Shown: positions 1,670-46,702 of the stretch, piece by piece
How the letters are laid out: every line of letters starts with the position of its first letter
Numbering within the stretch: position 1 is the first letter of the stretch
Assembly: GCA_030789695.1 (NCBI GenBank)
Contig: CM061141.1
Span: forward strand, 193,389,689 to 193,453,688
DNA length: 64,000 bases
Origin: Scilla litardierei
Lineage: Eukaryota; Streptophyta; Magnoliopsida; Asparagales; Asparagaceae
Direction of reading: 5' to 3'
Program-made: the position numbers and the translations under genes
Notes under the pieces: generated by a model
What the model was told of the DNA's origin: nothing
The model's database searches: none
The model's input: only the letters and a program-made list of their open reading frames with translations

Positions 1670-2016
1670 ACAAAACATGTCACACCCCGCTTCCCAAAAG
1701 TATGGAGGCAAAGCGTGAGAAGGTCCGCTCAGACTTGAAGATACAAAGCCGCAAGTCCGATAAGCGTCAATTAACACAAAGTAGCAGGTCCCTGTAATGT
1801 GACATCAGAGCAAAGATAACAATAATAGAAAAGAGGCAAATAAATAAATTATTGTTCTCATGTCCGAATAAAGTTCAACAACCAGAAAAGCCACCAGGCA
1901 ACAAAAAGAAAGAGTCTAAAAGAAAAAGGCCCGGCATGGCCGACAAGGAAAACTAACAACAATGGTGCTACTCACCGACAACAACACAACTACAAAGAAG
2001 GAACTGCGAGGGAACA

Positions 2017-2124
2017 CTAGGACTGGTCACTGGTGTCTTCGTACTCCACGTCAACTACAGAATCGGGCACGAACTCCACGAACTCGTCGCCCTCAACAGT
2101 AATCTCTGGCTCATCAACTAACAT
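2017..2124 (-). CDS. conserved acidic micro-ORF in LTR leader (35 aa)
   Basis: ATG at 2124 to TAG at 2017 encodes 35 residues beginning MLVDEPEITVEGDEF, with about a dozen Asp/Glu. The same position in the LTR at 53821-56392 encodes a 35-residue homologue (55962-56069), and the LTR at 60689-63973 a 33-residue one (63533-63634). It lies downstream of the presumed transcription start and upstream of gag, so it would act as an upstream ORF in genomic RNA. It is preceded in all three by a conserved 'gacatgtgcccctt' stretch. Function unknown; it could be a peptide, a translation-control uORF, or conserved RNA structure that happens to stay open. Confidence 0.5.
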   Translation of the reverse strand: MLVDEPEITVEGDEFVEFVPDSVVDVEYEDTSDQS

Positions 2125-3456
2125 GCGACACCCAAAGAGAAGGGGCACATGTCAGCAAGTCTACAAGACTTGTGCAATGAAACTAAAGAAAAGTAAAAAC
2201 AACCTAGCAGTTCTAGAGTATGGTATAACATGACATGTTATGCAAAGAGAACAGCAAGTAAGGTAAACAGCAGTTTATGACATGGCATGATTTAAAGCAT
2301 GGCAGGTAAAAACATGGCATGGGAAAGTAAACATTTACAAGGACAAATACAAGTATTGTAAGCACGTCGTGCACAGAGATTCTGCCCTTTGGCTAGAGTG
2401 GCTGTACGGTCCAACTCTTACGCTCAAGTGACCGTTTATCCCTACCCCTCCACGTGTATCGAGCCAGGTCATTACCCCCGAACCTGGAATGCTCGCTTCT
2501 GGATCACAAGCCAGGAAGTGTTTTTAACAAGTATGGCATAAGGTTATGCCCGCATAGCAGGTGCCTAGCCGGAAACGCGGAAACACGGATTGTACATGTA
2601 TTTGGTAGCGTGTGCTACGATGCAACATACAAATCAAATGGCATGTAAGAATGCAAATGCATGGCAGATATTCAATTAAAATGTGCACCGTTAAAGAAAT
2701 TAAATGTGACAGGCATATGCATGACATGACATGACAAAAGGCAGTTCTAGCTTCGTTGTCAAGCTAGAACTTGAAATCGCGCCTAGACCGCTATCATTTC
2801 ACGGTCTAGTCTCTTTCACGCTAAAAGCAAGGAAATGGCCTAAAGCATGGCCTAAAACAAGGTTGGCAAGTTTCACTTGCTTGGTACCAAAGTTGTTGTT
2901 CGACGAGAGTCTCAAGATCGGTTTCCTACGGAATTTGGGTTCGCTGTTATGGCAAAATAGAAAATTAGATTTGAGAGTTCTAATCCGGTTTGTATTGGAA
3001 TCCTATAACGTTTAGTGATCCGTTTTTATTAGGGTTTTCTAATTTACGGTGTGGGTTACGGGAAATTAAAGGTAGATCACTAACCGTTTACGAAGCGAAG
3101 ATCGAGACGCCTACGGATCTGCGGTAGGAGAAGATCTCACCGGATTCCGGATTGCCGTCGCCAAATCGGATCTAGCACGGCAACGGAAGAATCGATCCGG
3201 AAGAGCTACGGTTGAAAAGAATTCCTCGTGGCCGAAATGCTACAGATCTGGAGATTGGAGTTCGTCGGGAAAATCTGGAGCAAAAAGGAGATTTTAGGGG
3301 TTTTGGGGTCGGTCGGCGGCCTACGTGGGTGGTGCCGGGGCAAAGGAAGGCGAGATAGAGCACGGGAGGATGAAGAATGGCAAGAGAATGATTAGGGGAT
3401 GATTGGGGAAGAAGATGGGCTAAGAAAAGTGAAGAAAGAATTAGAAACGTATAGGG

Positions 3457-3465
3457 TTTAAATAG
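3457..3465 (-). promoter_or_regulatory. LTR core promoter, TATTTAAA
   Basis: CTATTTAAA on the minus strand, immediately downstream of the palindrome array. The homologous LTR has CTATTTAAAACCC at 54656-54668 in the same relative place. Confidence 0.5.
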
Positions 3466-3529
3466 AAAGAATGAGCGGCGGCTACGACTTAACCTAGGTT
3501 TACTGGGCAATTTAGTCGGTCAGTGAAGA

Positions 3530-4020
3530 GTGGTCGACCGACTAGTTTGGGAACTAGTCGGTCGGTCGTCTAACTGAGACCGACTAAGAGACAAACCGTG
3601 AACAGGGTTGGCATAGGTAGACAGATTTAGTCGGTCTGCGAAGGCCCGTCAACCGACTAGTCTAGGAACTAGTCGGTCGGTGAATGTTCATAGACCGACT
3701 AAGGGTAAAATTAGATGGATATTAAGCACTGAGAGTTAGTCGGTCTGAGACGAAACTCTAACCGACTAGTTTATCAACTAGTCGGTCGGTAGATGTTCTT
3801 TGACCGACTAACTATAAATAGTAACTCGACGGTACATAAGAACTCAGAATTAGTCGGTCTGAGTACAAGTCCTAACCGACTAGTTTGGGAACTAGTCGAT
3901 CGAAGAATGTGCTTAGACCGACTAAACGTAAACAGTAACTTAGCTGAAATTATTTCGTTGAACTAGTTGGTTCCTGAAGGATGGCCGACCGACTAGATTT
4001 CGATCTAGTCGGTTGGTTCT
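3530..4020 (-). repeat. five-unit palindrome array in U3 (GACTAGTT-n4-AACTAGTC)
   Basis: Five stem-loops centred at 4000, 3887, 3773, 3664 and 3549 (minus order), spacings 113, 114, 109, 115. Each core is (GACC)GACTAGTT, 4-base loop, AACTAGTC(GGTC), flanked by single half-sites TTAGTCGGTC and GACCGACTAA. It sits just upstream of the TATA-like box, as an enhancer would. The same five units, in the same order and spacing, occur in the copia LTRs at 13361-13840 and 23228-23708. Confidence 0.9.
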
Positions 4021-4860
4021 CCTTCATGAACCAACTAAGATGCACAAAAAGTGCCGAATCGAAGCACGAAGCTTCGGGAAGATTCATATGGCCTTTAGGA
4101 TCACTCTAGCTCTTAAAATTAAGACGCTATGAAGCTAATCGTAAGAACTTCTAACCGGAAAAAGCACACAAAGAGGGGAAACATCCAATATTATTCATAT
4201 AATCGTCATTACAAAATTCGGTCGTTACATGCAATAAAGCTCCATATACACATACCCAAGGAATGACCCAAATATCGACTCAATTCGAATAATCGGTGAA
4301 TAAATAGCTCAAGCATGCATGAGAACAGTATAAGAATTGAAGCGTATCATGCGTCGGGGACTCGACCGCTATGAACTAGAAAATCACCACACCATAGCCT
4401 AGACAATCGCTAGAAAGTTTCTATGCCAAGTGTGTTCGAAAACGAAGGAGGTTGAGAAGGTGTGGAGTAGAACACTCTGTGCAAATTCACGCCTTCCCTT
4501 TGTTCACGGTGGAGAAATAATATTCACACGGGAATTTTTTTGGGTTTTGGGTATTTGTATTTTTTTGGGCTTTTGGCTATATATATTTTTTTCTTTTTTT
4601 CTCTCTTCTTTTCTTTTTGGATTTTTCTTTTCTCTCTCTTTTTTTTCTTTTGGATTTTTGGATTTTTGGGCTATACATTTGTGTACTCTCCCAAGTTGGA
4701 GAATGGTACACGACGAGGGGATTTGCACCAAGTAAAACAAAAAAGAAATCGAAATCTAAACACTTGGGCAACAGAATTTTTTTTCTTGCAAATCAAAGCG
4801 TAAGCTAAATGGGTTATCCTAGTTCTCTTGGTGGAGTCCCGACACATGCGAATTGAAGCG

Positions 4861-4909
<49 letters not shown>

Positions 4910-4913
4910 TGGG

Positions 4914-5072
4914 ATTAATGGTTATCATACGCCATATGAGATAGGCTCTCATACTCCCTCTCACATAAAGCAACCAAGTACAAGCCCACATGTGCTTGTA
5001 CTTGGTTGTACTTGGTTGCTTTATGTGAGAGGGCGTATGAGAGCCTATCTCATATGGCGTATGATAGCCATT

Positions 5073-5075
<3 letters not shown>
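4914..5075. mobile_element. foldback MITE 1 (~162 bp) flanked by (TA)n
   Basis: Nearly the whole unit is one inverted repeat: the left arm from ATGGTTATCATACGCC pairs with the right arm ending GGCGTATGATAGCCAT, meeting around 4990 at a short loop. It has no coding capacity and lies between (TA)n tracts, resembling Micron-type or TA-targeting MITEs. Family unassigned. Confidence 0.8.
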
Positions 5076-5120
<45 letters not shown>

Positions 5121-5123
<3 letters not shown>

Positions 5124-5518
5124 AAGTGTTCCTAGGGTGACTCCTTAGATTCAATCTAAGGAGTCGCCCCCATTTTCCCCATATCCCACATTTTGTTTCG
5201 GAATTTTTTTTCATGGGGTTGTTTTTCACCTCATGGATGATCAACACACCAAAAATCAATTCATTCCAATACTTTTAGCGCCCCCATCTACCCCTTGCAA
5301 CTTCTTGGGTTTTCAGCACGTTTTCAGACCGTTGAAGTTGCAAGGGGTAGATGTGGGCTCTAAAAGTATTAGAATAGCTTGATTTTTGGTATGTTGATCA
5401 TCCATGAGGTGAACAACAACCCCATGAAAAATAAAATCCAAACAAATTATGGGATATGAGGGAAAATGGGGGCGACTCCTTAGATTTAATCTAAGGAGTC
5501 GCCCTAGGAACACTTTAC
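5121..5518. mobile_element. foldback MITE 2 (~398 bp) flanked by (TA)n
   Basis: The terminal inverted repeat begins GTAAAGTGTTCCTAGGG and is matched by its complement ending at 5518; pairing extends most of the length with a loop near 5320. Just inside each end is a second small palindrome (GACTCCTTAGATT..AATCTAAGGAGTC). Flanks are TA repeats, so the target duplication cannot be separated from the microsatellite. No transposase is encoded. Confidence 0.85.
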
Positions 5519-5592
<74 letters not shown>

Positions 5593-6309
5593 TGCATATA
5601 GAAGCATGCAGTAGAGGCAAATACCGCATAATCGAAATTGAAGCATGATAATCTAGGGGTCAACCAAGGACATGTATATAAATCAAAATCACAAAGTAGA
5701 AGCACACCACTTGCTAGTCACGACACACGACTCACCTAAAAGCAAAGTGAACCCACGAAGCATGAAATGCAATATGACTCGGCTTCCTATGGTTAGTGAA
5801 AGTGATTATCGAAGCAATGCTAGATGTGTGTGTGTGGTTCTATGGCAATTCATCATATGGGGTCATCTCTAGGAGAGGGAGAATAAAAAGAAAGAAAGAA
5901 AAACAAAAACACGATGAAAACGACTCAAAACAAGGAAAAAGACACAACTGACGCACAAAGTTCGACTCCCCCCAAGCTGAAACTTGCATTGCCCTCAATG
6001 CAATAGAAGTGAATACATGAGGGCAAAGAAAATGGAGGGAAGTACGCACCGACACAAAAATGTGAAAAACGTGAAAAACACACCAACAAAATTGAAAAAT
6101 AAAAAGAAGTAAAAAGAAACACACAAAATAAAAGATAGAAAGACACATTCAAACGACACATATAAACAGGCACACAACAACGATATCACACGACAACACA
6201 CATAAAAATCGATTTCCCCCAAGCTGAACATGACAATGCTAGCAATATGATATGATCATGGTGATGCAGAAATATGCTGGGAGAAGATCAAAAAAGAAAA
6301 AGAAAGGGA

Positions 6310-7321
6310 TCAAAATGCAGGAGAGGAACTGTCCTTGTCCTCCTCGGAAGAGTCTGGAGGGGTGTGGGCGGGAGAGGTGATGGGTGTGCGGAGAAGTGGA
6401 GAGAGGGGTGGATGGATGGGTGCGGGGGTGGTGTGGATGATGGGTGGAGTGGTGGTGATAATGGCAAGTGGGAGAGATACGGTGGCCAATGAAGTTGGTG
6501 AGGGAAGTGATCTCGAGCGCACCTGTAATTTCTTGCGACGGGTGTATGATGTGATGGAAGTGGCTGGTGGGAGGGTAGGGTCGACGGAAGTGGTCGTGGG
6601 TGGATCAGAAAGAGTGTGTGGAGATGTAGAAATGGTAATGGAAATGGTGGTGGCGGGAGGTGATGATCATCGAGGAGGTGAAGGAGGAGGTGAAGGAGGA
6701 GGAGTGGGTGGAGGCTGACCGTGAACGTGAGTGAGAATGCGGAGAATGGTGGCCAAGTTTCGCTCGAGTGCGAGGGAACGTGGGTGCGAGAGGAAGGAAG
6801 AGGATGGGTCCGAGGAGGTAGAGGCAGATGTGCCAGTGCGTAGAGAAGCTAACTCAGTCTCTAGAGCGAGACGAGCAGAGGTGCTCGGCGAACAGAGAAG
6901 TAATGGCAAGATGGACAGTGGAAGTGGTACCTGCGGAAGTGGTCATGCCGGCACTGGAGGCTAGGCCTAAGAGGGCCGAAGTGAGAGCCTCAGAAGAAAT
7001 ATGGACAGAAGCCGGGGTGGCACCACTAGGACCTGCCCCGGGGTCTCCTCCAAACGCAGGGATGTCCTGCACACCCAAGTGGGCGGCATGGGAAGGTGGT
7101 TGTGGTGCGTCAGGGATATGAAACTGAAGATGTAACCCCCCCTAAAAACTCTGGGTCAAGAGGGAACGTCCAATCTGCCACAAGAAGGATAGACATACGA
7201 CCAGGGTTGGGCAGAATGGTGTAAGGAGCAGGGGGTGGCCGTAATAAAAGACAAACTGACCGTCGGCATGAGGCTTAATCATATGGGTGTGCCGCAGGAC
7301 ATCAAGATCTATAAATGTGGA
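6310..7321 (-). pseudogene. degenerate 3' part of the T1 extra ORF (Pro/Ser/Thr-rich)
   Basis: Downstream of the stop at 7322 the minus strand keeps short open pieces rich in Pro, Ser and Thr, including a 70-codon piece (6310-6522) ending EEDKDSSSPAF. The acidic end 'SSEEDKDSSSP' matches the nucleotide word before the T2 noncoding tail (27680-27705), so this is probably the decayed C-terminal half of the 7322-8233 gene. Both strands look open here because of G/C-skewed low complexity; plus-strand readings are shadows. Confidence 0.4.
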
Positions 7322-8233
7322 TCATGCGGCGTGTGGAAAATCTCGGGGGATAATGATATTGAACATGGGATGTGAAGCAATGATGGTAATGATGCCCCCG
7401 CAACAATACTTGCCCTTGCCGGTGCGGCTAATATCAAGTAATTTTTGAATAAGCCAAGCATCGCCATTAATAGGTATGCGAGGGGCCTCAAAATCAATAC
7501 TGTCAGCACCGCGAATAAAATCAAAAGTCATAGCCCACAGGATGAAAAGGTCAGGGATAGTCACGGTCCCTGACTCATCCCTGGGAAAGAAAGTTCTAGA
7601 TAAGATGCGGTGGGCTAGACGAAATAATGGGTGGATGATCGAGGAGGCCTTGGCCTTGCCTCGAGGATATCGGTCATGGAGGGTGAGGCAACCCCAAAAA
7701 ATATCGACAACGAAGTCGCGATGATATTCAGAGGGACGGATCTCGTTGCCGCCAAGAATGGGGAAACCAAAGATGTTGTTGATTGTGTTCACGTGAGTGC
7801 GGATGTTTCGGTTTCGAACACAGAAATCAATAAGGGACCCCGCCTTAGTTTTGAGGGACGAAAGGAATTCTAGTGTGAGTGCGAGGTATGATTGGGCATG
7901 GGCGTTTAGAAAGCTCACCCAACCAAGGTTTGCAAATAAAGATTCGACACCGGAGAAAACTCCGAGATCGATCAGGATTTGTCTATGAGCAAACTTAGTG
8001 GCTAGGTGGGACCGTTGGTTTAGTCTATTATAAAAATCTTTATGTTCAAGACTAAAGAAATGGTATCCCCGCGGTCCCATCAGTGGGTCCTCGGGAGGAA
8101 TGATTGATTGGGGTGGGGGTTTGGTAGGGGGAGGTTGAGGAGCACGTGCATGTGGACATGTAGATTTATGTCTCTTGCAATACGGCTCCTCTTCCCTCAT
8201 GATTCCCTTACCCTTGTCCTTGTCCTTAGCCAT
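7322..8233 (-). CDS. Athila ORF1-like protein (extra ORF of T1)
   Basis: The start is chosen at ATG 8233 (MAKDKDKGKGIMREEE, a basic/charged N-terminus); a longer reading from 8398 would add a hydrophobic stretch overlapping the leader. 303 codons, uninterrupted, to a stop at 7322. About residues 80-170 contain the pattern of the Arabidopsis Athila ORF-1 family (PF03078-type): LIDLGVFSGVESLF, LGWVSFLN, TLEFLSSLK, INNIFGFP. The C-terminal part has LFILWAMTFDFIRG. The family occupies the env-like position after pol in Athila elements; molecular function is not established. Upstream lie a TATA box (8677-8684) and a palindrome array, so it may have its own promoter. The true protein probably extended beyond 7322. 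Confidence 0.6.
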   Translation of the reverse strand: MAKDKDKGKGIMREEEPYCKRHKSTCPHARAPQPPPTKPPPQSIIPPEDPLMGPRGYHFFSLEHKDFYNRLNQRSHLATKFAHRQILIDLGVFSGVESLFANLGWVSFLNAHAQSYLALTLEFLSSLKTKAGSLIDFCVRNRNIRTHVNTINNIFGFPILGGNEIRPSEYHRDFVVDIFWGCLTLHDRYPRGKAKASSIIHPLFRLAHRILSRTFFPRDESGTVTIPDLFILWAMTFDFIRGADSIDFEAPRIPINGDAWLIQKLLDISRTGKGKYCCGGIITIIASHPMFNIIIPRDFPHAA

Positions 8234-12140: not shown

Positions 12141-12639
12141 TGACGTCCCCTAGATTTAACAATGCATGCAATAGAGATCGGGGATACCATATTTAAATAT
12201 TTTTAACCGCAAGCGCACGGTGTTGTAGTATGGCTTGGGGGTTGAACTCAGGGAGGCTTGTGTTGTGCTTGTTATCAGGTAGGAACCGGTTCACCCGATG
12301 GGTGAGCTAGCCCAAATGATCGGTAGGTTGTCACGAATGGAAATACGAAGGGTGTAATATATAAAAGGGAACCTAAGACTTTGGTTTCCACCCGATCGTG
12401 TGCCCTCTCTATTACGACCGACAGATAGGATAACGATTGGATTTTAGGGTTTAGTGGTGAGACGTTGCCTCTAAGAGTGATACCTGCGTCCCATGGGCCC
12501 GATATTCCGGTCGATGCCCAGGATGATACGCTAGGACTATCCGGGTTCAGTAGGTGGGCATTCCCATGTCCATTAACACCGACTGACTCTGGGAGCACTA
12601 AGCTCACAACGATTACTCCCAACATCTCATCCTGCCGTT
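12141..12639 (-). repeat. 3' 499 bp of the T1 5' LTR
   Basis: Ends ...GGGGACGTCA on the minus strand beside the PBS. In reverse it aligns with T2 LTR 25535-25966 (words 'ggtgttaatggacatgggaatgcccacc' split over both copies, and 'gaccggaatatcgg'). The remaining ~1.3 kb is missing because T2 starts at 12640 in the opposite orientation. Confidence 0.85.
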
Positions 12640-12932
12640 GACGTGCGTTTATATTTCATATATTCACGCACGTTTTCTTCTGTGTTTTTCCGCTATTTTC
12701 CGCCGTTTTGTATTCGTTTTCTCGTATTTTCTTGTTTTCTTTCACTTTTCTGTGTTTTTGTATGTTTGTAGGAGTTTGCCAGTGTATGGGACATAAAACG
12801 ACGATATCATGAGTCCCCGGAGCAACGGGAGGAGTCACGCGTGATCCAGGGGGTCAAACGACGAAGATCGCATCTTTCAGCCCCTAACCCGACCGGTTGG
12901 TCACTTCCAACCGATCGGGTGATGCACGCGGG
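12640..12932 (+). repeat. T2 5' LTR, first part
   Basis: Begins TGACGTGCGTTTATATTTC, matching the 3' LTR start TGATGTGCGTTTATATTTC at 29338. It runs to the copia insertion point in the word 'gcacgcggg'. Confidence 0.9.
12928..12932. repeat. target site duplication GCGGG (left)
   Basis: GCGGG directly before the copia LTR, repeated at 24460-24464. The uninterrupted copy at about 29623-29632 reads gcacgcgggcacc, with one GCGGG. Confidence 0.95.
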
Positions 12933-13214
12933 TGTTGGATATTGGACTCCCCGGATTTGGTTTTGGATGATGAACAAACATAAATATATCGTGAACTAAC
13001 TATTTGTGAGCGCAGTTTTGGAGATCGTCGCCAAATTCATGTGAACATCTAAAGCGACGTCTCGAGACTTCTCAAAGCACGTGATCGAATGCCTAAAGCT
13101 TCGTTGAAGCTTTTGGACCTTTTTAGAAGTCATGAAGACTCGGATCAAAGCTTTCGAAGACGGTTCGTCAAGTTTATTTTATGTCTTTTAGCTTCGTTCC
13201 GTAGAATGTTAAGC

Positions 13215-13880
13215 CTTGAGTAGGTCTTACGTTTTAATCTTCATAACGCTCATATCTTAGATATAGGATCTTGTAAGAAGTCCATACAAACTTTCCCGAA
13301 GCTTCGTGCTTCGATTCGGGACTTCTTGTGCATGTTAGTTGGTTCAAGAAGGAGAACCAACCGACTAGATGGTGATCTAGTCGGTCGGCCATGCTTCTTA
13401 GACGTACTAGTTTGCGTCAGTCAATTCCAAGCTCGTTACGGTTTACAGTTAGTCGGTCTACGTTGACTCACCGACCGACTAGTTTGTGAACTAGTCGGTC
13501 AGTGATGCTTCTTTGACCGACTAGTTGAGCTTTCCCTGTACATGCCAACTTACTGTTTATCGTTAGTTGGTCTATGCACATTTGGCGACCGACTAGTTGA
13601 TGAACTAGTCGGTCAACTTTTGTTCTTGGACCGACTAATTCAATTTGTGTTCAGACTTTCAGTTTTATCTCTTTGTCGGTCTGAGTTGAGTTATCGACCG
13701 ACTAGTTGTGAAACTAGTCGGTCAGCAACTCTTCTTTGACCGACTAGTTCCCTTCAGTCTGAACTTGTTCTTTTCTCTGTTCACCGTTAGTCGGTTCATG
13801 TTTATTGACCGACCGACTAGTTGATGAACTAGTCGGTCGGTGGTTGTTCTTTGACCGACTAGTTTGCTTTAGAAAAGAGC
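13215..13880 (+). promoter_or_regulatory. copia U3 cassette with five-palindrome array
   Basis: Palindromes centred at 13372, 13486, 13600, 13709 and 13824 (spacings 114, 114, 109, 115), each GACTAGTT(or GAT)-n4-AACTAGTC with GACC/GGTC extensions and flanking half-sites TTAGTCGGTC and GACCGACTA. The stretch just before the first unit ('gaagcttcgtgcttcgattcgg', 'gttcaagaaggagaaccaacc') also matches the chromovirus LTRs. It ends about 50-100 bp before the TATA box, suggesting an enhancer. Confidence 0.9.
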
Positions 13881-13932
13881 CGTTGGAGCATTAATTGAAT
13901 CGTTTTTCTCTCTCTCTCTCTCTCCTCTAACC

Positions 13933-13940
13933 TATAAATA
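13933..13940 (+). promoter_or_regulatory. copia LTR TATA box (TATAAATA)
   Basis: AACCTATAAATACTTGG after a CT microsatellite (about 13905-13926). The sequence about 30 bp downstream (TGCATTCATTGCACTC) is a plausible start region. Repeated at 23797-23804 in the 3' LTR. Confidence 0.7.
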
Positions 13941-14678
13941 CTTGGTGAGCTGCATTCATTGCACTCAAGGCTGATTTTAAGACAAGTTTAGAGATCAAAG
14001 AGAAAGCATTCAAAGCTCATTCAAAGCTCTTTCATTCCAATCTTGAATCTCTCCTCACTCTTATTTCAAAAGACAGATTCATTGATTGTGAACCTTCCAA
14101 GCCAAGTGCTTGATCTTAGGTCACCATCAACCTCTTAGCTCTCCATCGCTGATCTACATCTTGGAGCTAGGGTTTGGTGCCTCTTCATCTTCCCCAAAAT
14201 CCGGTTTGCCCTAATTCGTAAGTATTACTAAAGGCATAGGGATTTTGTCGGTAAGCAATTTCTATTTCATTTCAATTTCTATTGTAAGTGATTCACTCTC
14301 GGTTGTGAGAGTTTGGTTGTGATCCCGGGTTGTGGGAGTCACAATTTACTTTGTGTATGATTTGACTTGTGAAGGTTTTTCACAAGTATTTCATGGTGGA
14401 AATCTTGAGTTAGGGTTGCTAACTCAAGTATCCGGAGGGGATCCAGGTGGTTGGGACGTAGGATCACCAGGAACAAGTCGGGGAGACTTGGGTGGATCCG
14501 AACCCAGTAATATTGCTTGTTTGCGATTATTTCCGTGTTGTCTAACATTTACATTTCCGCATTTCCGCATTGTTTGGTAGAGTTTGCAAGGTAATTAGGA
14601 ATTAGCCTCTTAATTATTTTAAAGTACTATTCATCCCCCCTCTAGTACTTGTGCAGTAGCTTAGCAGGGCATTACATT

Positions 14679-14690
14679 TGGTATCAGAGC
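14679..14690 (+). other. PBS for initiator tRNA-Met
   Basis: TGGTATCAGAGC two bases after the LTR end, the standard copia primer site. Confidence 0.97.
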
Positions 14691-17036: not shown

Positions 17037-20000
17037 GGGAATTGGATACTCGATAGCGGGTGTTCAAAACACATGACGGGTGACGCTCAATTACTCTCCG
17101 GAGTGGTCCCCATTGCTAATGGGAATCGCGTCGTCTTTGGAGGCAACGAGAGCGGAACCATCATAGGTGTTGGAAAAGTGGGTAATCCTTCTAAGCCTTT
17201 AATATGTGATGTGTACCTTGTTAAAGGATTAAACCACAATCTTATTTCAATAAGTCAACTTTGTGATAAAGGTTACAAAGTTAGCTTTGCGAAAGGAATG
17301 TGCCATATTTTAAATAAGAATACTAATGATGTATTATTTTCCGGCACACGCCATAAGGATATATATATCCTACATCTTCCAAGATCACATGAACAATGTC
17401 TCCTTGCCAACACAAGTGAACAACACTTATGGCATCGACGTTTTGGTCATGTGAACTTTGGAACACTATTTAAGCTTTTCAAGTTAAATTATATTAGAGG
17501 CTTCCCTAAGCTTGTCTTTCAAAAGAAAAGCTTTTGTGACTCGTGTCAACGAGGCAAGCTTCCAAAATCTTCATTTAAACCTAAGAAAAGCATTTCTTCT
17601 AAGCGGCCACTAGAGCTATTACATCTAGGTTTATTTGGGCCAACTAGAGTTGCTTCATTAGGTAATGCTAGATATGGACTTGTCATCATTGATGACTTTT
17701 CTAGGTTTACTTGGGTATTTTCATTGTGTAATAAAAATGAAGCTTTTGAAAACTTCACAATTTTTGTTAAGAAAGTACAAAATCTCATTGGAACCACCAT
17801 TGTCACTATTCGTAGTGATCATGGAGGGGAATTTGAGAATGAGTCTTTTGAGACATTTTGTGATGAAGTTAGTATTACACAAACCTTTTCATTCCCTCGC
17901 GCACCTCCTCAAAATGGTGTTGTTGAGAGAAAGAATAGGACGCTAGTGGAATGTGCTCGCACTATGCTCGATGATAGCCAACTTGGCCATCAATTTTGAG
18001 CGGAAGCGGTACATACCGCTTGCTATGTGTTTAATAGAATACTTTTGAGGCCCGGCACTAAACAAACTTGCTATGAATTGTTGTTTGGTATGTTGCCTCA
18101 AGTTAAACATTTTCGAGTTTTCGGTTCGAAATGTTTTATTAAAAACACGTATGGTAGTTTGGACAAATTCGTTCCGAGATCCGATGAGGGGATATTTGTT
18201 GGATATTCCTCCCGTAGCAAAGCCTACCTGATATACAACAAACGAACCTCAATGATCGAGGAATCACTTCATGTCTCATTTAATGAAGGATTTGTTCCAA
18301 CTAGAATTACTAATGATGATGACTCCATGGATGTCTTATGTGATTCAATTGGTAATTCTAATTCTATTGATTCTATTGATTCTAATGTTACTAACCCTAC
18401 TAATGAAGTTTTTGAGAATGTTCCTAGTGATCAAGGTATTCCCAAACGGCTTCATACCATTCGTGACCATCCTCATAAGCAAGTCATTGGCAATATTCAT
18501 GATAGTGTCAAGACGAGATCACAAGTCAACTACTTCGTGCATTGTGCTTTTGCCTCCTCGATTGAGCCAAAGAATATTAATGAGGCATGCGAAGATAGCG
18601 CTTGGACCTTGCCATGGAGGAGGAACTCATTCAATTCGAGAGGAATGAAGTTTGGGAGCTTGTTCCATTGCCATCGAAGAACCACACAGTCATAGGGACA
18701 AAGTGGATTTTCAAGAACAAGACTGACGAAAACCAAATCGTCGTCCGGAACAAAGCTCGGTTAGTAGCTCAAGGCTATCGACAAGAGGAAGGTATTGATT
18801 TCGAAGAATCCTTTGCTCCGGTAGCTAGATTAGAATCAATTAGATTATTATTGTCTTTTGCATGCCATAAAGATTTCAAATTATTTCAAATGGATGTAAA
18901 AGTGCATTTTTAAATGGAGATGTTGTCGAGAAAGTTTACGTTTCTCAACCTCCGGGTTTTATAAATGAAAAATTCCCAAACCATGTTTTCAAACTTAAGA
19001 AAGCACTTTACGGTTTGAGACAAGCTCCTCGAGCTTGGTATGACCATTTAAAGAATTTTCTTTTGGATTTAGGTTTTAAAATGGGAGAAGTTGATTCCAC
19101 ATTATTTGTTAAGTACTCGAATAATGCTATAATTTTAGTTCAAATTTATGTTGATGATATCATTTTCGGTGCTACTAACTTTGCTCTTTGCGAAGAGTTT
19201 TCTAATGTGATGAAGGACCAATTTGAGATGAGCCACATGGGTGAGCTCAAATATTTCTTAGGTCTCCAAATTCGCCAAATGAACGATGCAATCTTCATCC
19301 ACCAAACAAAGTACACGGTGGAGTTGCTAAAGCGATTTGGAATGGAGAATGCCTCCGGGAAGAAGACTCCAATGAGCACTACTACACATCTTGATAAGGA
19401 TACGGGCGGTAAAGATGTGGACATTCGTCTATATCGAGGTATGATCGGTAGTTTACTTTATCTTACCGCAAGTAGGCCCGATATTATGTTTGCTGTATAT
19501 GTATGTGCTCGTTATCAGTCTCAACCTAAGGAATCTCACTTAGTAGCGGTAAAACGTATTTTCCGTTATCTAAGTTATACACTTAATTTTGGATTACTTT
19601 ATCCAAAATCTAGCACATATGAGTTAATCTCATATAGTGACGCAGATTATGCGAGATGCAAATCCGACAGCAAAAGTACTAGTGGCACTTGCCATTTTAT
19701 AGGAAATTCTCTTGTCTCTTGGTTTTCCAAGAAGCAGAATTCCGTATCACTTTCAACCACTAAGGCGGAATATATTGCCGCCGGTGCCGCGTGTGCTCAA
19801 GTTCTTTGGATGAGACACACACTTAAAGACTTTGGTATAAACTGTGATACTTGTCCTATCATGGTGGACAACCAAAGTGCAATATGTCTCTCCAAGAACC
19901 CGATACACCATTCCCGTTCGAAACACATAGATGTCCGACACCATTTCTTAGATGATCATGTTGCTAAAAAGAACATCATATTAGTGTACGTTGAAACCCA

Positions 20001-20097
20001 GAAGCAAATCGCCGATGTTTTCACGAAACCCCTAAAGGAAGACTCCTTTGTGCGGTTACGTCGAGAATTGGGGATTATGGGTGAATCCGAGATTTAG
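17037..20097 (+). pseudogene. copia Pol: PR, integrase, RT, RNaseH (frameshifted)
   Basis: The order PR-INT-RT-RH is diagnostic for copia. PR has ILDSGCSKHMTGD (about 17046-17084). GAG-pre-integrase HLWHRRFGHVN lies near 17430 and the zinc region ends CDSCQRGK. The integrase core has LHLGLFGP, where the first catalytic Asp is Gly, then IRSDHGGEF and NGVVERKNR. RT includes [17 protein letters not shown] and YVDD at 19147-19158; RNaseH includes YSDADYA and STTKAEYIA. Breaks: TGA near 17998, frame changes near 18595 and 18905, and a frame change from Gag before 17037. The final 360 codons (19015-20097) are open and well conserved. Polymerase motifs are intact but integrase is not. Confidence 0.93.
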
Positions 20098-20359: not shown

Positions 20360-20530
20360 TGTTTGCAACTAGTCGGTTCAAGCTCATTGCTCGACCGACT
20401 AGATCGTGATCTAGTTGGTCAGTGCTTGAACTGTGACCGACTAATTGCAAAGGGGACAGTTGCGTCTTTTGAGCTTCCGACCGAATTAAATCAAATCCGA
20501 CCGACTAAACTCTTTTCTAGTCGATCGAAA
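20360..20530 (+). repeat. internal palindrome unit of the copia element
   Basis: Between the pol stop (20097) and the extra ORF (20792): AACTAGTCGGTTC, GACCGACTAGATC..GATCTAGTTGG, GACCGACTAATTG, CCGACCGACTAAAC. This is about one unit of the LTR array plus half-sites. No clear TATA box follows; the nearest A/T word is CTCTAAACCC at about 20545. Stretch 20098-20359 holds nothing recognisable. Confidence 0.75.
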
Positions 20531-20791: not shown

Positions 20792-21817
20792 ATGGCACGT
20801 ACACGTATCCCGATCCGTCCTACGAGCCCTTCGCCTATGACTGTAGAGCCATCCCCTACGGATCCCGACCAACCCTCGCAACCTAAACGCCGATCGAAGA
20901 CTACCCAACCCTCTTCGTCTTCGCCTCCTCTTAAGCGTAAGAGGACGGCGACAGCGAAGCCCCAATCTCAGCCCAAGACCAAGCCTGTGTCTTTTCGTGC
21001 TCCCACTCCACCCGGTGCTTCAGATTCCGACACCGAGTACATACCCGAGACTGAGACCCATAGGGATCCTTCACCTCCTCCTAGGCAACCTGAGTCTAGC
21101 TCTCGTCCCCGTACTTCCACACGTCAGCCTAAGGGAAAGGCTCCGATGCCGGTTGGCGGTGTCGATATTTCGTTGTGTCGCAACGACCCTTTGTGTCTAG
21201 CGGCTTACAACTGTATCGAACACTGCCCGCTCCTTCTGGAGCATTTCATTCAGTTCTTAGACTTCCCTGGCCTCGCAGATCTTCTGTCGTCTTCCGGTCT
21301 TCTCGATTACCTTCGATTTGACCCTAAGGCGAACCCACGCTCTTACCCTCGCCTCGTGAAGCTCTTCTATGCCAATAGGATTTGTGGTCAGTACGACGAG
21401 ACCCAATCGATTGAGACGACTGGCTTGGGGACTCCGATAGTCCTCACGGCAGAAATCTTAGGAGAGGTATTGGGTATCTCCTCGTCTGGCCTTCTTCCGT
21501 CTGACATTTCTGTTGATGTTATCTCTGACCTCGATCAGGTCATTCTTTCTAAGATCTTCCACGAAATTCCTCCCGCCATGATTGGCGTTCCCTCGAAGTC
21601 TTTCAAGCCGAATGCCTGGGTCCTGAATCTGATTCTGAAGTCGTGCTTACTTCCTAAGTACGGCTCATCCTCTTTGTCGTCCCAGCCATTCTTGAAGTTG
21701 ATCTATGCCATCTTCATGGGGAGCTCGATTAACTGGGCTCGGATTATACTTGATAAGATGGATTCTTTCGAGTGTATCCGCAAGTCCATGAAGTCGGCTC
21801 ATATCCCATTCCCGTGA
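20792..21817 (+). CDS. extra ORF (env-like position) of the copia element, 341 aa
   Basis: ATG 20792 to stop 21815-21817, uninterrupted. Residues 1-125 are Pro/Ser/Thr/Lys-rich and disordered-looking (SQPKRRSKTTQPSSSS). About residues 130-335 form a globular part with LLEHFIQFLDFPGLADLL, YPRLVKLFYANRICGQ, GTPIVLTAEILGEVLGI, and PFLKLIYAIFMGSSINWARII. This layout parallels plant 'transposon protein'/Athila ORF1-type domains and resembles the T1 gene at 7322-8233. I see no signal peptide or convincing membrane span, so a classical envelope role is not supported. Its survival while gag and pol carry breaks is notable. Confidence 0.7.
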   Translation: MARTRIPIRPTSPSPMTVEPSPTDPDQPSQPKRRSKTTQPSSSSPPLKRKRTATAKPQSQPKTKPVSFRAPTPPGASDSDTEYIPETETHRDPSPPPRQPESSSRPRTSTRQPKGKAPMPVGGVDISLCRNDPLCLAAYNCIEHCPLLLEHFIQFLDFPGLADLLSSSGLLDYLRFDPKANPRSYPRLVKLFYANRICGQYDETQSIETTGLGTPIVLTAEILGEVLGISSSGLLPSDISVDVISDLDQVILSKIFHEIPPAMIGVPSKSFKPNAWVLNLILKSCLLPKYGSSSLSSQPFLKLIYAIFMGSSINWARIILDKMDSFECIRKSMKSAHIPFP

Positions 21818-22800
21818 CCACTCCTGCTGCAGAGCCTGCTGCTGCTGCAGATCCTGCAACTGCCTCCTGAGCTTCCTTGAGGACCCTCCTAGTGCACTTT
21901 AGATGAGATATCTTGTATGAGAGTGTTGGGTAGGATAGTTGGTGGTTGTGATTTTTGATATTTTTGGATGTATTTTGATGTATCTCATATGATGTTATGA
22001 GATTTTTGTATGTTGATACTCTGATATATGTTGTGATATGATGTATTTTGTGCTTCGATCGTTGGATCGATTTTATGTATGTCGGCGATGTATGATTTTG
22101 TTGTATTCATGCTTTATATATATACATCGATGTTGACATTTCATTCTCTTGTGCACATTTTATATTTTTTATGTCTCTGATGTTTTGATTTCGTCGCTCG
22201 ACGATAATAACTTAGTTAAATAGAAATTTCTTCTATGGAAACATAGAATTGTTTTCCATGCACTAAATTAACCAAGAATGTTGATTTTGGAGAGTATATT
22301 CCATAACTCAATCCGTAAAATTGATTTGAGTTTTGATGATTTCGTTTTACGATTTTTCGACTATGGTATCATTGACACGCTTTGATTTTATTCGTATTTT
22401 CCTTTGGTGTCATTTGGACCGTGGTCGTATTCTACGACTCCCATGCTTTTATTTGAAGCCATTGTTGTTGTCGTTGATCTCCTCCCGCTCCTTTTGCTTA
22501 TGCCAAAGGGGGAGAGATATAATAATAACGATGTGCTAAATGATAATTTAAAGCATTTTCCAAGAATCTAATTTGATATGTTAGATTCAGGGGGAGTTAA
22601 TATATAAAAATGGATTTTGAATCCTAAATTTCGATATTTGGATTCTTATTTCATACTTTACTTGTCTGCTTGATGCTTATGATTATTATTGAATATGGAA
22701 TTAACTTGTCATCAATGCAGGGGGAGTAAGTAAATTTCATTTTAATCATTATTTTGTATTATTATTTATGTTGGTTTGTCATCACCAAAAAGGGGGAGAA
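21818..22800 (+). other. copia 3' untranslated region with multiple PPT-like tracts
   Basis: AT-rich, no gene. GGGGGAG tracts occur at about 22507, 22590, 22719 and 22791-22798; the last (AAAAAGGGGGAGAA) abuts the 3' LTR and is the likely plus-strand primer. Multiple PPTs are a described Sirevirus feature. Confidence 0.85.
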
Positions 22801-24459
22801 TGTTGGATATTGGACTCCCCGGATTTGGTTTTGGATGATGAACAAACATAAATATATCGTGAACTAACTATTTGTGAGCGCAGTTATGGAGATCGTCGCA
22901 AAATTCATGTGAACATCTAAAGCGACGTCTCGAGACTTCTCAAAGCACGTGATCGAATGCCTAAAGCTTCGTTGAAGCTTTTGGACCTTTTTAGAAGTCA
23001 TGAAGATTCGGATCGAAGCTTTCGAAGATGGTTCGTCAAGTTTATTTTATGTCTTTTAGCTTCGTTCCGTAGAATGTTAAGCCTTGAGTAGGTCTTACGT
23101 TTTAATCTTCATAACGCTCATATCTTAGATATAGGATCTGGTAAGAAGTCCATACAAACTTTCTCGAAGCTTCGCGCTTCGATTCGGGACTTCTTGTGCA
23201 TGTTAGTTGGTTCAAGAAGGAGAACCAACCGACTAGATGGTGATCTAGTCGGTCGGCCATGCTTCTTAGACCGACTAGTTTGCGTCAGTCAATTCCAAGC
23301 TCGTTACTGTTTACAGTTAGTTGGTCTATGTTGACTCACCGACCGACTAGTTTGTGAACTAGTCGGTCAGTGATGCTTCTTTGACTGACTAGTTGAGCTT
23401 TCCCTGTACATGCCAACTTACTGTTTATCGTTAGTCGGTCTATGCACATTTGGCGACCGACTAGTTGATGAACTAGTCGGTCAACTTTTGTTCTTGGACC
23501 GACTAATTCAATTTGTGTTCAGACTTTCAGTTTTATCTCTTAGTCGGTCTGAGTAGAGTTACCGACCGACTAGTTGTGAAACTAGTCGGTCAGCAACTCT
23601 TCTTTGACCGACTAGTTCCCTTCAGTCTGAACTTGTTCTTTTCTCTGTTCACCGTTAGTCGGTTCATGTTTATTGACCGACCGACTAGTTGATGAACTAG
23701 TCGGTCGGTGGTTGTTCTTTGACCGACTAGTTTGGTTCAGAAAAGACCCGTTGGAGCATTAATTGAATCGTTTTTCTCTCTCTCTCCTCTCTAACCTATA
23801 AATACTTGGTGAGCTACATTCATTGCACTCAAGGCTAATTTTAAGACAAGTTTAGAGAGAGATTCATTGATTGTGAGCCTTCCAAGCCAAGTGCTTGATC
23901 CTAGGTCACCATCAACCTCTTAGCTCTCCATCGCTGATCTACATCTTGGAGCTGGGGTTTGGTGCCTCTTCATCTTCCCCAAAATCTGGTTTGCCCTAAT
24001 TTGTAAGTATTACTCAAGGCATAGGGATTTTTTCGGTAAGCAATTTCTATTTCATTTCAATTTCTATTGTAAGTGATTCACTCTCGGTTGTGAGAGTTTG
24101 GTTGTGATCCCGGGTTGTGGGAGTCACAATTTACTTTGTGTATGATTTGACTTGTGAAGGTTTTTCACAAGTATTTCATAGTGGAAATCTTGAGTTAGGG
24201 TTGCTAACTCAAGTATCCGGAGGGGATCCGGGTGGTTGGGACGTAGGATCACCGGGAACAAGTCGAGGAGACTTGGGTGGATCCGAACCTAGTAATATTG
24301 CTTGTTTGCGATTGTTTCCTTGTTGTCTAACATTTACATTTCCGCATTTCCGTATTGTTTGGCAGAGTTTGCAAGGTAATTAGGAATTAGCCTCTTAATT
24401 ATTTTAAAGTACTATTCACCCCCTCTAGTACTTGTGCAGTAGCTTAGCAGGGCATTACA
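22801..24459 (+). repeat. copia 3' LTR (1659 bp)
   Basis: Same ends as the 5' LTR. Palindromes centred at 23240, 23354, 23468, 23577 and 23692; TATA at 23797-23804. It lacks about 83 bp after the TATA region present in the 5' LTR. Followed by TSD GCGGG. Confidence 0.97.
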
Positions 24460-24464
24460 GCGGG
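24460..24464. repeat. target site duplication GCGGG (right)
   Basis: Matches 12928-12932; T2 LTR sequence resumes as gcaccacccgga. Confidence 0.95.
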
Positions 24465-24494
24465 CACCACCCGGACACAAGCTGGAGTAGTCAG

Positions 24495-24850
24495 AAAGTC
24501 AACCGGTCGGTTCAGAGACCGGTTCACACGTCCCAACTCTCTGGAATTTGATGTTGAATGCCAACTGATCGGGTGACCTTCACCCGATCGGTTCATCTGT
24601 AGCCGAATCTTCCAAGCGACGACCCGTAGAGCTCACCCGACGGTTCCTGACCGTGTGAAGTCGACAGAAGTCTCTGTCTTTTTGGGCATAATTCTAACCG
24701 ATCGGGTGACTTCTCACCCGATCGGTTCATCTGTAGTTGCAATTCCTCATTTGGTGAACTGACGGAGCCACCCGCTCGCCTCAGCGCCCGGTTGAAGATC
24801 TTCAAAGCTTTCACCCGATCGGTTGATTCTTCAACCGATCGGGTGGCGAT
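24495..24850 (+). repeat. LTR palindrome array, CCGATCGG type
   Basis: Inverted repeats centred near 24512 (ACCGGTC..GACCGGT), 24578, 24711 (AACCGATCGGGTGA..TCACCCGATCGGTT) and 24828, with degenerate units between, giving a period of about 60-67 bp. Paralogous array at 29580-30010. It differs in core from the CCGACTAGT arrays but sits in the same place, just upstream of the TATA box. Confidence 0.88.
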
Positions 24851-24896
24851 TTTTCTGCGGGTTTGGACCCGAACCATTAGGGTTTTGAAGTGGGGC

Positions 24897-27540: not shown

Positions 27541-29337
27541 TGTAAAATTTTACCGCTTTCTAGTTTAGATTTGAATAATCTTGTCTCCTCTCATTAGCGA
27601 GGGGAGCGTATCTAGGATTTTCTTTTGCATCTTAATAACCCTTCATGTCGTGCCCTTCTATCATTTCACCCCCATCCTCTACCGAGGAGGACGAGGACTC
27701 GTCCTCTCCTGCATTTTGATTTCTTTCTTTTCTTTTCCGATTTTCCCCTAGCATATCTCTGCATCACATTGATCATATCATTTCGTTAGCATTGTCATGT
27801 TCAGCTTGGGGGGAATCGATTTGTGTGCATGTTTTCGCGTGTCGTTGTTGTGTGTCTGTGTCTATGTGTTCTTTCGTCGTGTTTTTTATCTTTTATTTGA
27901 GTGTTTCTTTTTCTTTATTTTTTAGTTTCGTTCATGTGTTTTTCATGTTTTTCACTTTTTGTGTCGGTGCGCCCCCCATTTTCTTTGCCCTCCCATATAA
28001 ACTATTATTGCATTGAGGGCAATGCAAGTTTCATCTTGGGGGAGTCGCACTTCGTGCGTCATTTGTGTCGTTTTTCTTCGTTTTTGAGTCGTTTTCCATC
28101 GTGTTTTTCTTTTTTCTTCTCATCTTTTGTTCCCTCTCTCCTAGAGATGACCCCATATAATGAATTGCATCATGATCACGCACACACTTAGGATAGCTTC
28201 GATAATCACATTCACTAACCCTAAGAAGCCGAGTCCTCTTGCATTTCACGCATCATGGGTTCACTATGCTTCTATGTGAGTCGTGTGTCGTGACTAGCTT
28301 ATTGTGTGCTTCTACTTTGTGATGTTGATTTATATACCTATCCTTGGTTGACCCCTAGATTATCATGCTTCGATTTGAATATGACGGTATTTGCTTCTAC
28401 TGTCTGCTTCTATATGCATGTTATATGTTTATATCGTATGTTTCAATTCGCATGTGTCGGGATTCCACAAACAAGGACTAGGATAACCCATTTAGCCTAT
28501 GCTCTGATTAGCGAGAAATATCTCCTTTGCCCAAGTGTTTAGAATCCGATTTCATTTTTATTTTACTTGGTGCAAATCCCCTCGTCATGTACTGTTCTCC
28601 CACTTGGGAGAGTACACATGTATATATCCCAATATCCAAAAATCCAAAAAAGAGAGAAAAGAAAAACCCAAAAAAAGAAAAGAAAAGATAAAATAAAAAA
28701 ATATGTATAGCCAAAAATCCAAAAAAAAATACAAATACCCAAAACCCAAAAATTTCCTGTGTGAATATTTTTCCTATCTACCGAGAATAAAGGGAAGGCG
28801 AGAATTTGCACCGAGTGTTCTACTCCACACCTTCTCAACCTCCATCGTTTTCGAAAACACTTGGCATAGGAACTCTCTAGCGGTTACCTAGGCGATAGTG
28901 TGGTGATTTCCTAGTCCCTAGCTGTGGAGTCCCCGATGCAAGATACGCTTCTATTCTCATACTCTTCTCATCCATGCTTGAGCTACATATTCACCGCTAT
29001 TTCTAAATCGAATCGATATTTTGGTCATTTCTTGGATTTGTGTATATGGAGCTTATTGTACGATGTAGATAGTGACACCGACTACTAGCATATGACCACA
29101 CTCACTCGTGCTTCACGGTGTGGGCCCACGGCACTTGTCTGGACTCGTGTTCCTTAGTTTAGTGATGTGATTTGGCGTTTGTTTGCTTGGTGTGTTGTTT
29201 TTGGTTTTGTTGGCCCTGACGGGCGATTTAGGATTTAGAGTTCTCTTCTTTCTCTCTTCCTCTCTATTTTCTCCCTCCGAGCTCCTACTCTCACTCGTCT
29301 TCCTCGAGGACGAGGAAGGGTTTAGCTTGGGGAATTT
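27541..29337 (+). other. T2 3' noncoding region and PPT
   Basis: No gene. Shared with T1 in inverted orientation from about 27690. PPT-like words: CAGCTTGGGGGG (27802-27813), CATCTTGGGGGA (28032-28043) and the terminal TTTAGCTTGGGGAATTT directly before the LTR, preceded by CTCGAGGACGAG. Also a low-complexity CCAAAAA/AAAAG tract at 28630-28760. Confidence 0.7.
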
Positions 29338-30027
29338 TGATGTGCGTTTATATTTCATATATTCACACACGTTTTCTTCTGTGTTTTTCCGCTATTTTCC
29401 GCCGTCTTGTATTCGTTTTCTCGTGTTTTCTTGTTTTCTTTTTTTCCGTGTTTTTGTATGTTTGCAGGAGTTTGCCGGCGTAGGGGACATAAAACGACGA
29501 TATCATGAGTCCCCGGAGCAATGGGAGGATTCACGCGTGATCCAAGGGGTCAAACGACGAAGATCGCATCTTTCAGCCCCTCACTCGACCGGTTGGTCAC
29601 TTCCAACCGATCAGGTGATGCACGCGGGCACCACCCGGATATAAGCTGGAGCGGTCAGAAAGTCAACCGGTCGGTTCAGAGACTGGTTCACACGTCCCAA
29701 CTCTCTGGAATTTGATGCTGAATGCCAACCGATCGGGTGACCTTCACCCGATTGGTTCATCTGTAACCGAATCTTCCATGCGACAACCCAGAGAGCTCAC
29801 CCGACGGTTCGCTGACCGTGTGAAGTCAACAGAAGTCTCTGTCTTTTTGGTCATAATTCTAACCGATCGGGTGACTTCTCACCCGATCGGTTCATCTGTA
29901 GCTGCAATTCATCATTTGGTGAACCGACGGAGCCACCCGCTCGCCTCAGCGCCCGGTTGAAGATCTTCAAAGCTCTCACCCGATCGGTTGATTCTTCAAC
30001 CGATCGGGTGGCGATTTTCCTGCGGGT
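29338..30027 (+). repeat. T2 3' LTR, truncated
   Basis: Starts TGATGTGCGTTTATATTTC and matches 12640-12932 joined to 24465-24865, then stops at CTGCGGGT, where unrelated Athila sequence begins. Contains the CCGATCGG array (29580-30010) and the intact copia target word gcacgcgggcacc at about 29623. Confidence 0.9.
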
Positions 30028-42100: not shown

Positions 42101-42307
42101 TTTAAACATTAAAATACTGATTTTCACAACCTACTCCAAAAATTACGAAAATGCTACGGGTTCGTATCGTCGCGAGAAGTACAACTACGAAGTCCATTTT
42201 AAGATTTGAGCGATGATAAAACATGAAAAAAAATATCATTTACTCTGAATTCGTTTTAAAATAGTTTTGAACACAAAAATTGCACACCACGAAAACAGGT
42301 CGTTACA
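39198..42307 (-). repeat. LTR A, 3' LTR of X (3110 bp)
   Basis: Minus strand start TGTAACGACC at 42307; the end at 39198 is a diverged GGGCGTCA. It contains a GC-rich segment (41160-41420) whose open frames are not genes. It carries no palindrome array, unlike LTRs L and 53821-56392. Confidence 0.85.
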
Positions 42308-42744
42308 TCCTACCCACCTTAAGAAAAATTCCGTCCTCGGAATTCTTGGGATTTGAGTGCATGCCGATAATACGTATGTATCTCGTCGTGTTTCTACGAG
42401 GTAAATCATGATCTGAAATATTACAAGACGAAGCAATGAAAATCAGCCAGGAAATGATACAGGTGACGAGGTTAAGATTGAGTTTCAAAAAGAGGTTCGG
42501 GTGACTAAGCACCAGATGGCCTTAATGGTTAGTGGGCAAGAGAAAAGACTAGTGACGGATACCCAAGATGTCCAGGGATGAGGATAAGTGATGAATAACA
42601 ATGCGTGTGTGTGTGTATATATATACTTACAACTGCAAGTCCCATATTCTAACATAATGCACACTAAACCTGTAATCTCAATCGAGTATAACTCAAATAA
42701 ATCATCACTACCCGTCTCATCACCGAATAACGCTACAATTATAA
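42308..42744 (-). other. 3' end of X internal region with PPT
   Basis: Minus strand ...CCGAGGACGGAATTTTTCTTAAGGTGGGTAGGA directly before the LTR in two parts: the purine-rich CTTAAGGTGGGTAGGA (42308-42323) is the PPT, and the GAGGACG word is typical of Tekay/Del 3' ends. No coding sequence remains. Confidence 0.6.
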
Positions 42745-45327: not shown

Positions 45328-45646
45328 CCTGTATGGGCCACCACTAAAACCTGTCACGCCCCGCTTCCCATTAGATTTGGGAGAGAGGACGCGAACGGGC
45401 CCGCTTATGCAAGTCAGGAGGAGGTACTTTTGCTTTTATTTTCCCCTTGACTTAACACAATAAGCGTCTGTGTGAAATACAGCAGGTTCTTACTTGCATT
45501 ACCCAAAAACAACACAGATGAAAAATTATTACAATCTCATTGGTCTCAAAATTTCAACAAAGCAGGGATAGAAAAGAGAGGGTCTTATGACCCGTACAAC
45601 AAATGAAAGAAATACAATGAAGGTTCACTAGTTAACAATTCTTGGC
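45328..45646 (-). repeat. LTR piece C: inverted PBS plus last 295 bp of an LTR
   Basis: PBS (45328-45343, minus), 8-base spacer, then LTR end TGTCACGCCCCGC (45352) to CTTGGC (45646). In LTR A the sequences ending B and starting C are neighbours, separated only by about 8 bases (ccactggt, 39490-39497), so C looks like the missing end of B turned around in place. Confidence 0.65.
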
Positions 45647-46686: not shown

Positions 46687-46702
46687 CCTGCATGGGCCAC
46701 CA
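46687..46702 (-). other. PBS of element X
   Basis: Minus strand TGGTGGCCCATGCAGG, spacer GGTTTTAG, then LTR D. Confidence 0.75.

Follow-up and report, generated by a model that had tools for sequence, protein, structure and literature searches.

A stretch of 64,000 nucleotides from Scilla litardierei (assembly GCA_030789695.1, contig CM061141.1, positions 193,389,689 to 193,453,688 of the forward strand), here called the window, holds a Sirevirus-like Ty1/copia retrotransposon and Ty3/gypsy sequences whose long terminal repeats (LTRs) share a cassette of palindromic units in U3, upstream of the TATA box. The 5' LTR of the copia element lies at 12933–14676 on the plus strand and is 97.5% and 96.9% identical, in two pieces, to the 3' LTR at 22801–24459 (+). 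Its cassette, composed of a lead-in and five palindromic units, spans 13233–13877 (+), as delimited by blastn of LTR against LTR and by scores of the block versus its flanks. The unit cores (13360–13837, +) lie at 13360–13385, 13474–13499, 13588–13613, 13697–13722, and 13812–13837, giving spacings of 114/114/109/115 bp that recur in the 3' LTR, where the cores occupy 23228–23705. The TATA box, TATAAATA, follows at 13933–13940 (+), 71 bp downstream of the last half-site, which ends at 13861.

The cassette is also present in two Ty3/gypsy LTRs. One (53821–56392, +) stands between the gag-pol pieces of two gypsies (49368–53825 and 56827–60688); its cassette spans 53986–54626 (+), with cores at 54107–54584 spaced 113/114/109/116, and TATTTAA follows at 54657. 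The other (1678–4229, −) is accompanied by a gypsy gag at 612–1529 and has its cassette at 3496–4134 (−), with cores at 3537–4013, spacings of 113/114/109/115 on its own strand, and TATTTAA at 3464–3458. The hairpin centres and spacings that the initial annotation had listed for these three LTRs were confirmed.

The shared U3 block and its limits

At up to three mismatches, 21 palindromes occur in the window: LTRs account for 20, and the remaining one lies in the copia linker (20394–20419) and had not been listed in the initial annotation. None was found in 100 dinucleotide shuffles. Alignment of copia 13164–13875 with gypsy 53910–54621 gave 510 identities among 681 aligned bases, collinear over a lead-in of ~120 bp and all five units; as the initial annotation had proposed, the similarity extends beyond the palindromes into the lead-in and the sequence between units. 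In all ten pairings of two copia with five gypsy-type LTRs, the block aligned with scores 89–185 standard deviations (s.d.) above local shuffles, while the LTR parts on both sides of it lay −1.2 to 2.3 s.d. from shuffles. The longest collinear copia-gypsy blastn matches among those listed start at positions 301–362 of the copia LTR and end at 929–945, a range that omits stretch L013, inside which the LTR start falls. Sequence 3' of the cassette differs between the superfamilies, and the coding regions are assigned by Pfam to copia in one case and gypsy in the other, in agreement with the earlier claim that the remainder of these elements is unrelated.

Arrays occupy both LTRs of individual elements of either kind. 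Coding matches to gypsy lie between two arrays in seven of 20 targeted stretches (L009, L011, L012, L014, L016, L023, and L028), while L018 is a copia element with two arrays and a gag match only, L010 has two arrays in gypsy-type LTRs with no coding match, and the window copia carries the array in both LTRs. Misannotation of gypsy as copia or the reverse is ruled out by Pfam together with the elements that have arrays in both LTRs, and chance or palindrome-only similarity by the shuffles, the collinear alignment, the spacer identity given below, and the block scores. On these sequence comparisons, the ~0.64-kb U3 block common to copia and gypsy LTRs is homologous.

Descent of the array and direction of the proposed transfer

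The history of the array was approached through trees of units and of whole cassettes. In a tree of 71 units (61 from LTRs and ten from linkers; 106 columns), unit 1 of six copia and six gypsy arrays formed one group (support 100/94), and the penultimate unit of six copia and four of six gypsy arrays formed another (80/92). The ten linker units, from five copia elements, were split from the 61 LTR units by a 96/98 branch; they are slightly closer to copia than to gypsy LTR units (0.478 vs. 0.427 outside half-sites, significance not tested). Among arrays of canonical spacing (three of six copia and four of seven gypsy), the collinear unit order was the best of 120 permutations. A penultimate spacing of 107–110 bp characterises all 12 copia-type arrays but only 4 of the 11 gypsy-type ones. 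The unrooted cassette tree comprised 36 rows, labelled by the LTR sequence outside the cassette, with seven LTRs acting as their own references. Here, 22 gypsy-flanked rows (14 elements) make up one side of a 100/100 branch and 13 copia-flanked rows (11 elements) lie opposite; L025, which has no flank match, was placed on the copia side, and none of the 36 rows matched both flank types. Because there is a single split, one exchange that predates the sampled subfamilies suffices, and, as judged from this tree, several exchanges are not needed for the 36 rows. The promoter-proximal module of about 0.65 kb postulated in the initial annotation is borne out as shared by descent by the block-limited homology, the unit-1 group, the collinear order, and the single tree split.

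The explanation in which we have reasonable confidence is that a U3 regulatory module was transferred once and intact, probably from a Sirevirus to gypsy, and that it would serve as an enhancer recognised by a DNA-binding factor of the host. On this account, the block originated as the regulatory array in the U3 of a Ty1/copia element of Sirevirus type. A whole copy, including the lead-in and several already differentiated units, would have replaced or entered the U3 of one Ty3/gypsy lineage once, before the sampled gypsy subfamilies split. The route may have been template switching, twice over, between RNAs packaged together, or else conversion between DNA copies.

Several results weigh against this account or limit it. 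Most sampled stretches were picked at motif clusters and come from one chromosome end of one genome. In the unit tree, copia unit 3 of three of the six arrays grouped with gypsy units 2 to 4 (93/69), and units 2 and 5 formed no cross-superfamily group. In the arrays chosen for canonical spacing, the best single match had the same unit number in 27 of 60 cases, and in 23 of 60 outside half-sites, a weak excess over the 12 expected by chance. Spacer identity with half-sites deleted was 0.625 vs. 0.544 in shuffles, a modest difference, and the same-numbered gypsy spacer was the best match of a copia spacer in 15/40 cases (19/40 with half-sites; chance, 10). The similarity between palindromes that the initial annotation had reported stands above the shuffled level, but the correspondence unit by unit is only partial; the latter counts imply that units turn over, with no strict one-to-one orthology in every gypsy subfamily. 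Finally, branch lengths in the cassette tree show no less diversity on the gypsy side than on the copia side, and the tree, being unrooted, does not give the direction of transfer.

The identity of the copia element bears on that direction. Its pol pieces (17073–20097, +; Pfam) have the integrase domain rve (17073–17999) before the reverse transcriptase domain RVT_2 (19015–20097), and a primer binding site (PBS) of the Sirevirus form TATCAGAGC reads TGGTATCAGAGC at 14679–14690. The octamer AGGGGGAG occurs four times at 22507–22798 (+): the terminal polypurine tract (PPT) begins at 22791, 10 bp before the 3' LTR (22801), and linker copies start at 22507, 22589, and 22719, as in Sireviruses. In both LTRs, the C runs of the polyC integrase signal were seen by eye, ~36 bp short of the LTR end. 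A palindromic array precedes the TATA box, and an extra single unit core (20394–20419, +) lies in the linker upstream of an additional open reading frame (ORF) 3' of pol (20792–21817, +; weak PF20167 match, 43.3 bits vs. a cut-off of 45). An envelope-like gene is found in some members of the Sirevirus genus. The same two locations, before the TATA box and in the linker, contain the "repeated motif" (RM) array of 13 elements reported previously (Bousios et al., 2010; PMC2829016), in agreement with the link to Sireviruses that the initial annotation had drawn. An inverted repeat at the PPT/3' LTR junction (score 14 vs. 5.8 ± 1.2 in shuffles, maximum 11 in 500) has a right arm that starts after 28 bp of LTR, which is also the reported Sirevirus average (Bousios et al., 2010; PMC2829016).

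Two Sirevirus features are missing. The two copia cassettes do not form a CpG island, as judged by composition (GC 0.43–0.44; observed/expected CpG 1.11–1.15), and cassette GC across seven LTRs, 0.43–0.46, is under the usual CpG-island limit. The attachment site after the PPT is AA/TG, not the Sirevirus AT/TG, a site reported for 20 Sirevirus elements but not for all; according to the same source, neither missing feature is universal among Sireviruses (Bousios et al., 2010; PMC2829016). With six features present and two absent, the element is designated Sirevirus-like. Its target site duplication is GCGGG (5 bp), as read against an uninserted copy of the target at 29337–30027; the flanks of the insertion (12638–12932 and 24460–24862) are the two halves of the target of which that copy is intact.

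The gypsy elements differ from the copia element in domain order and in where units occur. In L023, Retrotrans_gag (3272–4177) and RVT_1 (4989–6047) precede the SH3_Tf2-1 integrase end (7014–7847; rve fell below the cut-off), and this order, together with the gypsy-type gag, is that of Ty3/gypsy. The Del/Tekay chromoviruses, which have a chromodomain at the C-terminus, were considered as the possible lineage of these elements; Pfam found no chromodomain in 7014–7847 at E ≤ 1. The gypsy reverse transcriptase of the window is RVT_1 at 58258–59319. Three gypsy LTRs of the window are related: the two with the cassette and a third without it (60689–63973, +), which sits at the integrase-frame break of the gypsy at 56827–60688. 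The downstream part of this third LTR matches the others (70–88% in pieces over 80 bp), and its first ~2 kb, corresponding to U3, is unrelated to theirs; judged from these LTRs, the gypsy lineage seems to swap U3 modules. No units lie between the two arrays in any of the seven gypsy elements with coding matches, so that the LTR set stands alone there, whereas the window copia has both LTR and linker sets.

Transfer from copia to gypsy is favoured, although it is inferred rather than proven, because of the Sirevirus hallmarks of the copia element, the publication of the array as Sirevirus-specific, the related gypsy LTR that lacks the cassette, and the unit-free gypsy interiors. The same single exchange in reverse, with the array born in a gypsy lineage and taken over by a Sirevirus-type LTR, is unlikely but carries some weight. 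It is compatible with the unrooted cassette tree, which has deep groups on the gypsy side, and two gypsy rows branch off first in the unit-1 group (90/70); the cassette-less gypsy LTR and the restriction of the linker set to copia among the elements examined speak against it. Far less credible is the independent capture by both superfamilies of one host sequence, such as a tandem repeat or a motif-bearing host promoter. This would avoid an exchange between superfamilies, which requires shared packaging or DNA conversion, neither of them directly evidenced. Yet 35 of the 36 sampled arrays with at least four units had flanks that match a copia or gypsy LTR, and at the sole exception, L025, the upstream side lies beyond the stretch and the downstream side is unmatched.

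Anatomy of the unit and its predicted reader

The internal geometry of the module bears on what it may do. From 40 array clusters, 23 arrays were kept: seven clusters were dropped for having fewer than four units or unclear orientation, and ten because they lay in the second LTR of an element already represented. Of the 23, 13 arrays have five units, six have six, and four have four, for a total of 115 units. Each unit is a ladder of four half-sites, GACCGACTA, in alternating orientation. Half-sites were searched as ACCGACTA/TAGTCGGT with at most one mismatch, and arrays contain 15–26 of them (19–21 in 13 of the 23). In 221 of 228 cases (100/102 gypsy, 121/126 copia), the centres of outer and inner ('<>') half-sites are 21 bp apart, a distance of two helical turns; steps between units are mostly 45–62 bp. 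When up to three mismatches are allowed, the outer half-site is matched best at a distance of 15 bp from the core in 115/115 units on the left and in 114/115 on the right; this match has no more than one mismatch in 94 and 110 units, respectively. Information per base is 1.72–1.85 bits in half-sites, 0.84–0.91 in the 15-bp spacers, and 0.26–0.58 in the flanks. The conserved word is GACCGACTAG, in which TAG is conserved equally with ACCGAC. The unit resembles an old inverted duplication, since its spacers show weak inverted symmetry. TATTTAA lies 48 bp past the last half-site in both cassette-bearing gypsy LTRs of the window, so that the distance from array end to TATA-like box is 48–71 bp in the three window LTRs.

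This anatomy suggests that proteins assemble along a single face of the DNA, a model that the two-turn spacing, the conserved words, and the looser spacers would fit, and an enhancer role is suggested by the placement of the array just upstream of the TATA box. Four half-sites 21 bp apart would all be exposed on one side of the helix, and a host transcription factor would bind them cooperatively, loading each unit as one assembly. The bound array would drive the LTR promoter, and both superfamilies would answer to the same factor. Protein binding and enhancer function are predictions drawn from the arrangement of the cassette. The geometry has its own reservations: the inner 21-bp step is set by the search pattern itself, and the outer step may go back to the inverted duplication by which the unit arose.

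The pattern of substitution bears on whether the array works as RNA instead, its hairpins serving dimerisation, packaging, or processing, with U3 transcribed in the 3' LTR. A linker piece folds at a z-score of −5.85 relative to shuffles. Spacer columns pair slightly more often than shuffles (0.492 vs. 0.458, with 0 of 300 as high), and a G-U pair is retained in 33 of the 62 one-sided changes counted over the ten half-site pairs; the last two results leave room for some stem constraint. The pair adjoining the half-site pairs carries a compensated change, from TT/AA to AT/AT, which is typical of unit 1. Within the ten half-site pairs, however, compensated changes number 0, and RNA folding leaves both the 21-bp ladder and the TATA-proximal position unexplained. 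An Rfam scan gave no family above its threshold. An RNA element is regarded as very improbable, and an RNA stem as the main selected feature is not favoured.

Within the enhancer explanation, the factor may be a DREB/CBF protein and the module a cold/drought enhancer, a special case that is tenable though unlikely. Each half-site includes ACCGAC, the core of the dehydration-responsive element/C-repeat (DRE/CRT), through which DREB/CBF factors bind and induce stress promoters, and this hexamer occurs 19–22 times per cassette in seven LTRs vs. 0–2 times in the remainder of each LTR. Conservation spans GACCGACTAG, TAG included, which is longer than a DRE core needs.

It is also improbable that the array is not an enhancer but chiefly something on which small-RNA silencing acts, along the lines discussed for maize Sirevirus palindromes. 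Small RNAs are in excess on the palindrome clusters of those elements (Bousios et al., 2016, as reported in PMC10760457). A pure silencing target would hardly have been retained and passed on to a second superfamily, although one array can well have both roles.

Distribution and implications for LTR retrotransposons

The core motif of the cassette is abundant. Across the genome (3.68 Gb), the exact palindrome pattern matched 139,129 times on the plus and 139,428 times on the minus strand, with no match for a reversed control; because the full palindrome matches on both strands, the number of places is between 139,000 and twice that figure. Matches to a copia-type tail pattern numbered 2,510 + 2,526. 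Among ten randomly placed 4-kb stretches, one contained an LTR array and one contained linker units. Nine LTR pairs, several truncated at stretch ends, are 97.2–99.1% identical, which indicates recent movement of both copia and gypsy kinds. Outside the plant, the palindrome pattern was absent from viral contigs and the cassette had no match in plasmids; 257 billion bases of prokaryote genomes yielded one palindrome, in a Chamaesiphon metagenome-assembled genome, with no outer half-sites in the surrounding stretch shown.

Further rearrangement is visible around these elements. The copia LTRs of L018 and L037 are 75–86% like those of the window copia and their gag sequences just 61% and 58%, such that LTR and gag seemingly have separate histories. 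The single LTR at 53821–56392 is flanked on both sides by gypsy coding regions (49368–60688) with ~75% identical pol, comparable to published complex insertions. Direct repeats at 39200–41631 and 46715–49238 match each other in two parts, at 83% and 93% identity, and more, partly inverted, pieces lie at 44166–45646; a gypsy-type LTR end lies at 46711 (−) in this 39200–49238 repeat region, where the palindrome search was negative. At 4861–5600, long inverted repeats within 0.75 kb are 88–100% identical to their own reverse complement.

Parts of LTRs are reportedly traded in soybean between autonomous and non-autonomous partners, within one superfamily. The present arrays are like the RM boxes of Sireviruses in being palindromic and multi-copy, in lying in the upstream LTR half before the TATA box and again in the linker 5' of the downstream ORF, and in having CGG/CCG within half-sites (Bousios et al., 2010; PMC2829016). 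They differ in the ladder of four GACCGACTA sites and in their presence in Ty3/gypsy LTRs as well; the four-site ladder at 21-bp steps, in both superfamilies, is new here. In that paper, the RM motif was called Sirevirus-specific in a comparison with classic copia elements, and none of its three mentions of gypsy is about the RM motif. Co-existing Triticeae elements likewise exchange sequence by template switching or recombination, but those complexes join one family, whereas here a U3 patch alone is shared, across superfamilies (Sabot and Schulman, 2007; PMC1950507). The LTRs of Del, a gypsy lineage for which LTR CpG islands are described, also have a variable region in their 5' half; the island is reported absent from the studied eudicot Del, and the main text has no word starting with "palindrom" (Cruz et al., 2014; PMC4029996). 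Among the matches listed in a search of the open-access PubMed Central literature by titles and abstract starts, no control module shared by copia and gypsy was reported.

As a rule, the superfamilies of LTR retrotransposons are regarded as distinct lineages, each with control regions that evolve independently. The cassette described here suggests instead that U3 modules are transferable parts with a history of their own, as a regulatory module apparently crossed between superfamilies with its internal geometry kept, and it makes LTR similarity alone an unsafe guide to superfamily. A broader proposal, which is rather doubtful, is that both superfamilies amplified under one transferred Sirevirus-type enhancer, and that a single factor, which copia might encode or recruit, would thereby control much of the mobile DNA, with gypsy as a cis-acting rider. 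The 21-bp ladder provides a testable prediction about the protein that would read the cassette, and, as the exact core motif has over 10^5 occurrences in a single genome, one factor could set the activity of two classes of element.
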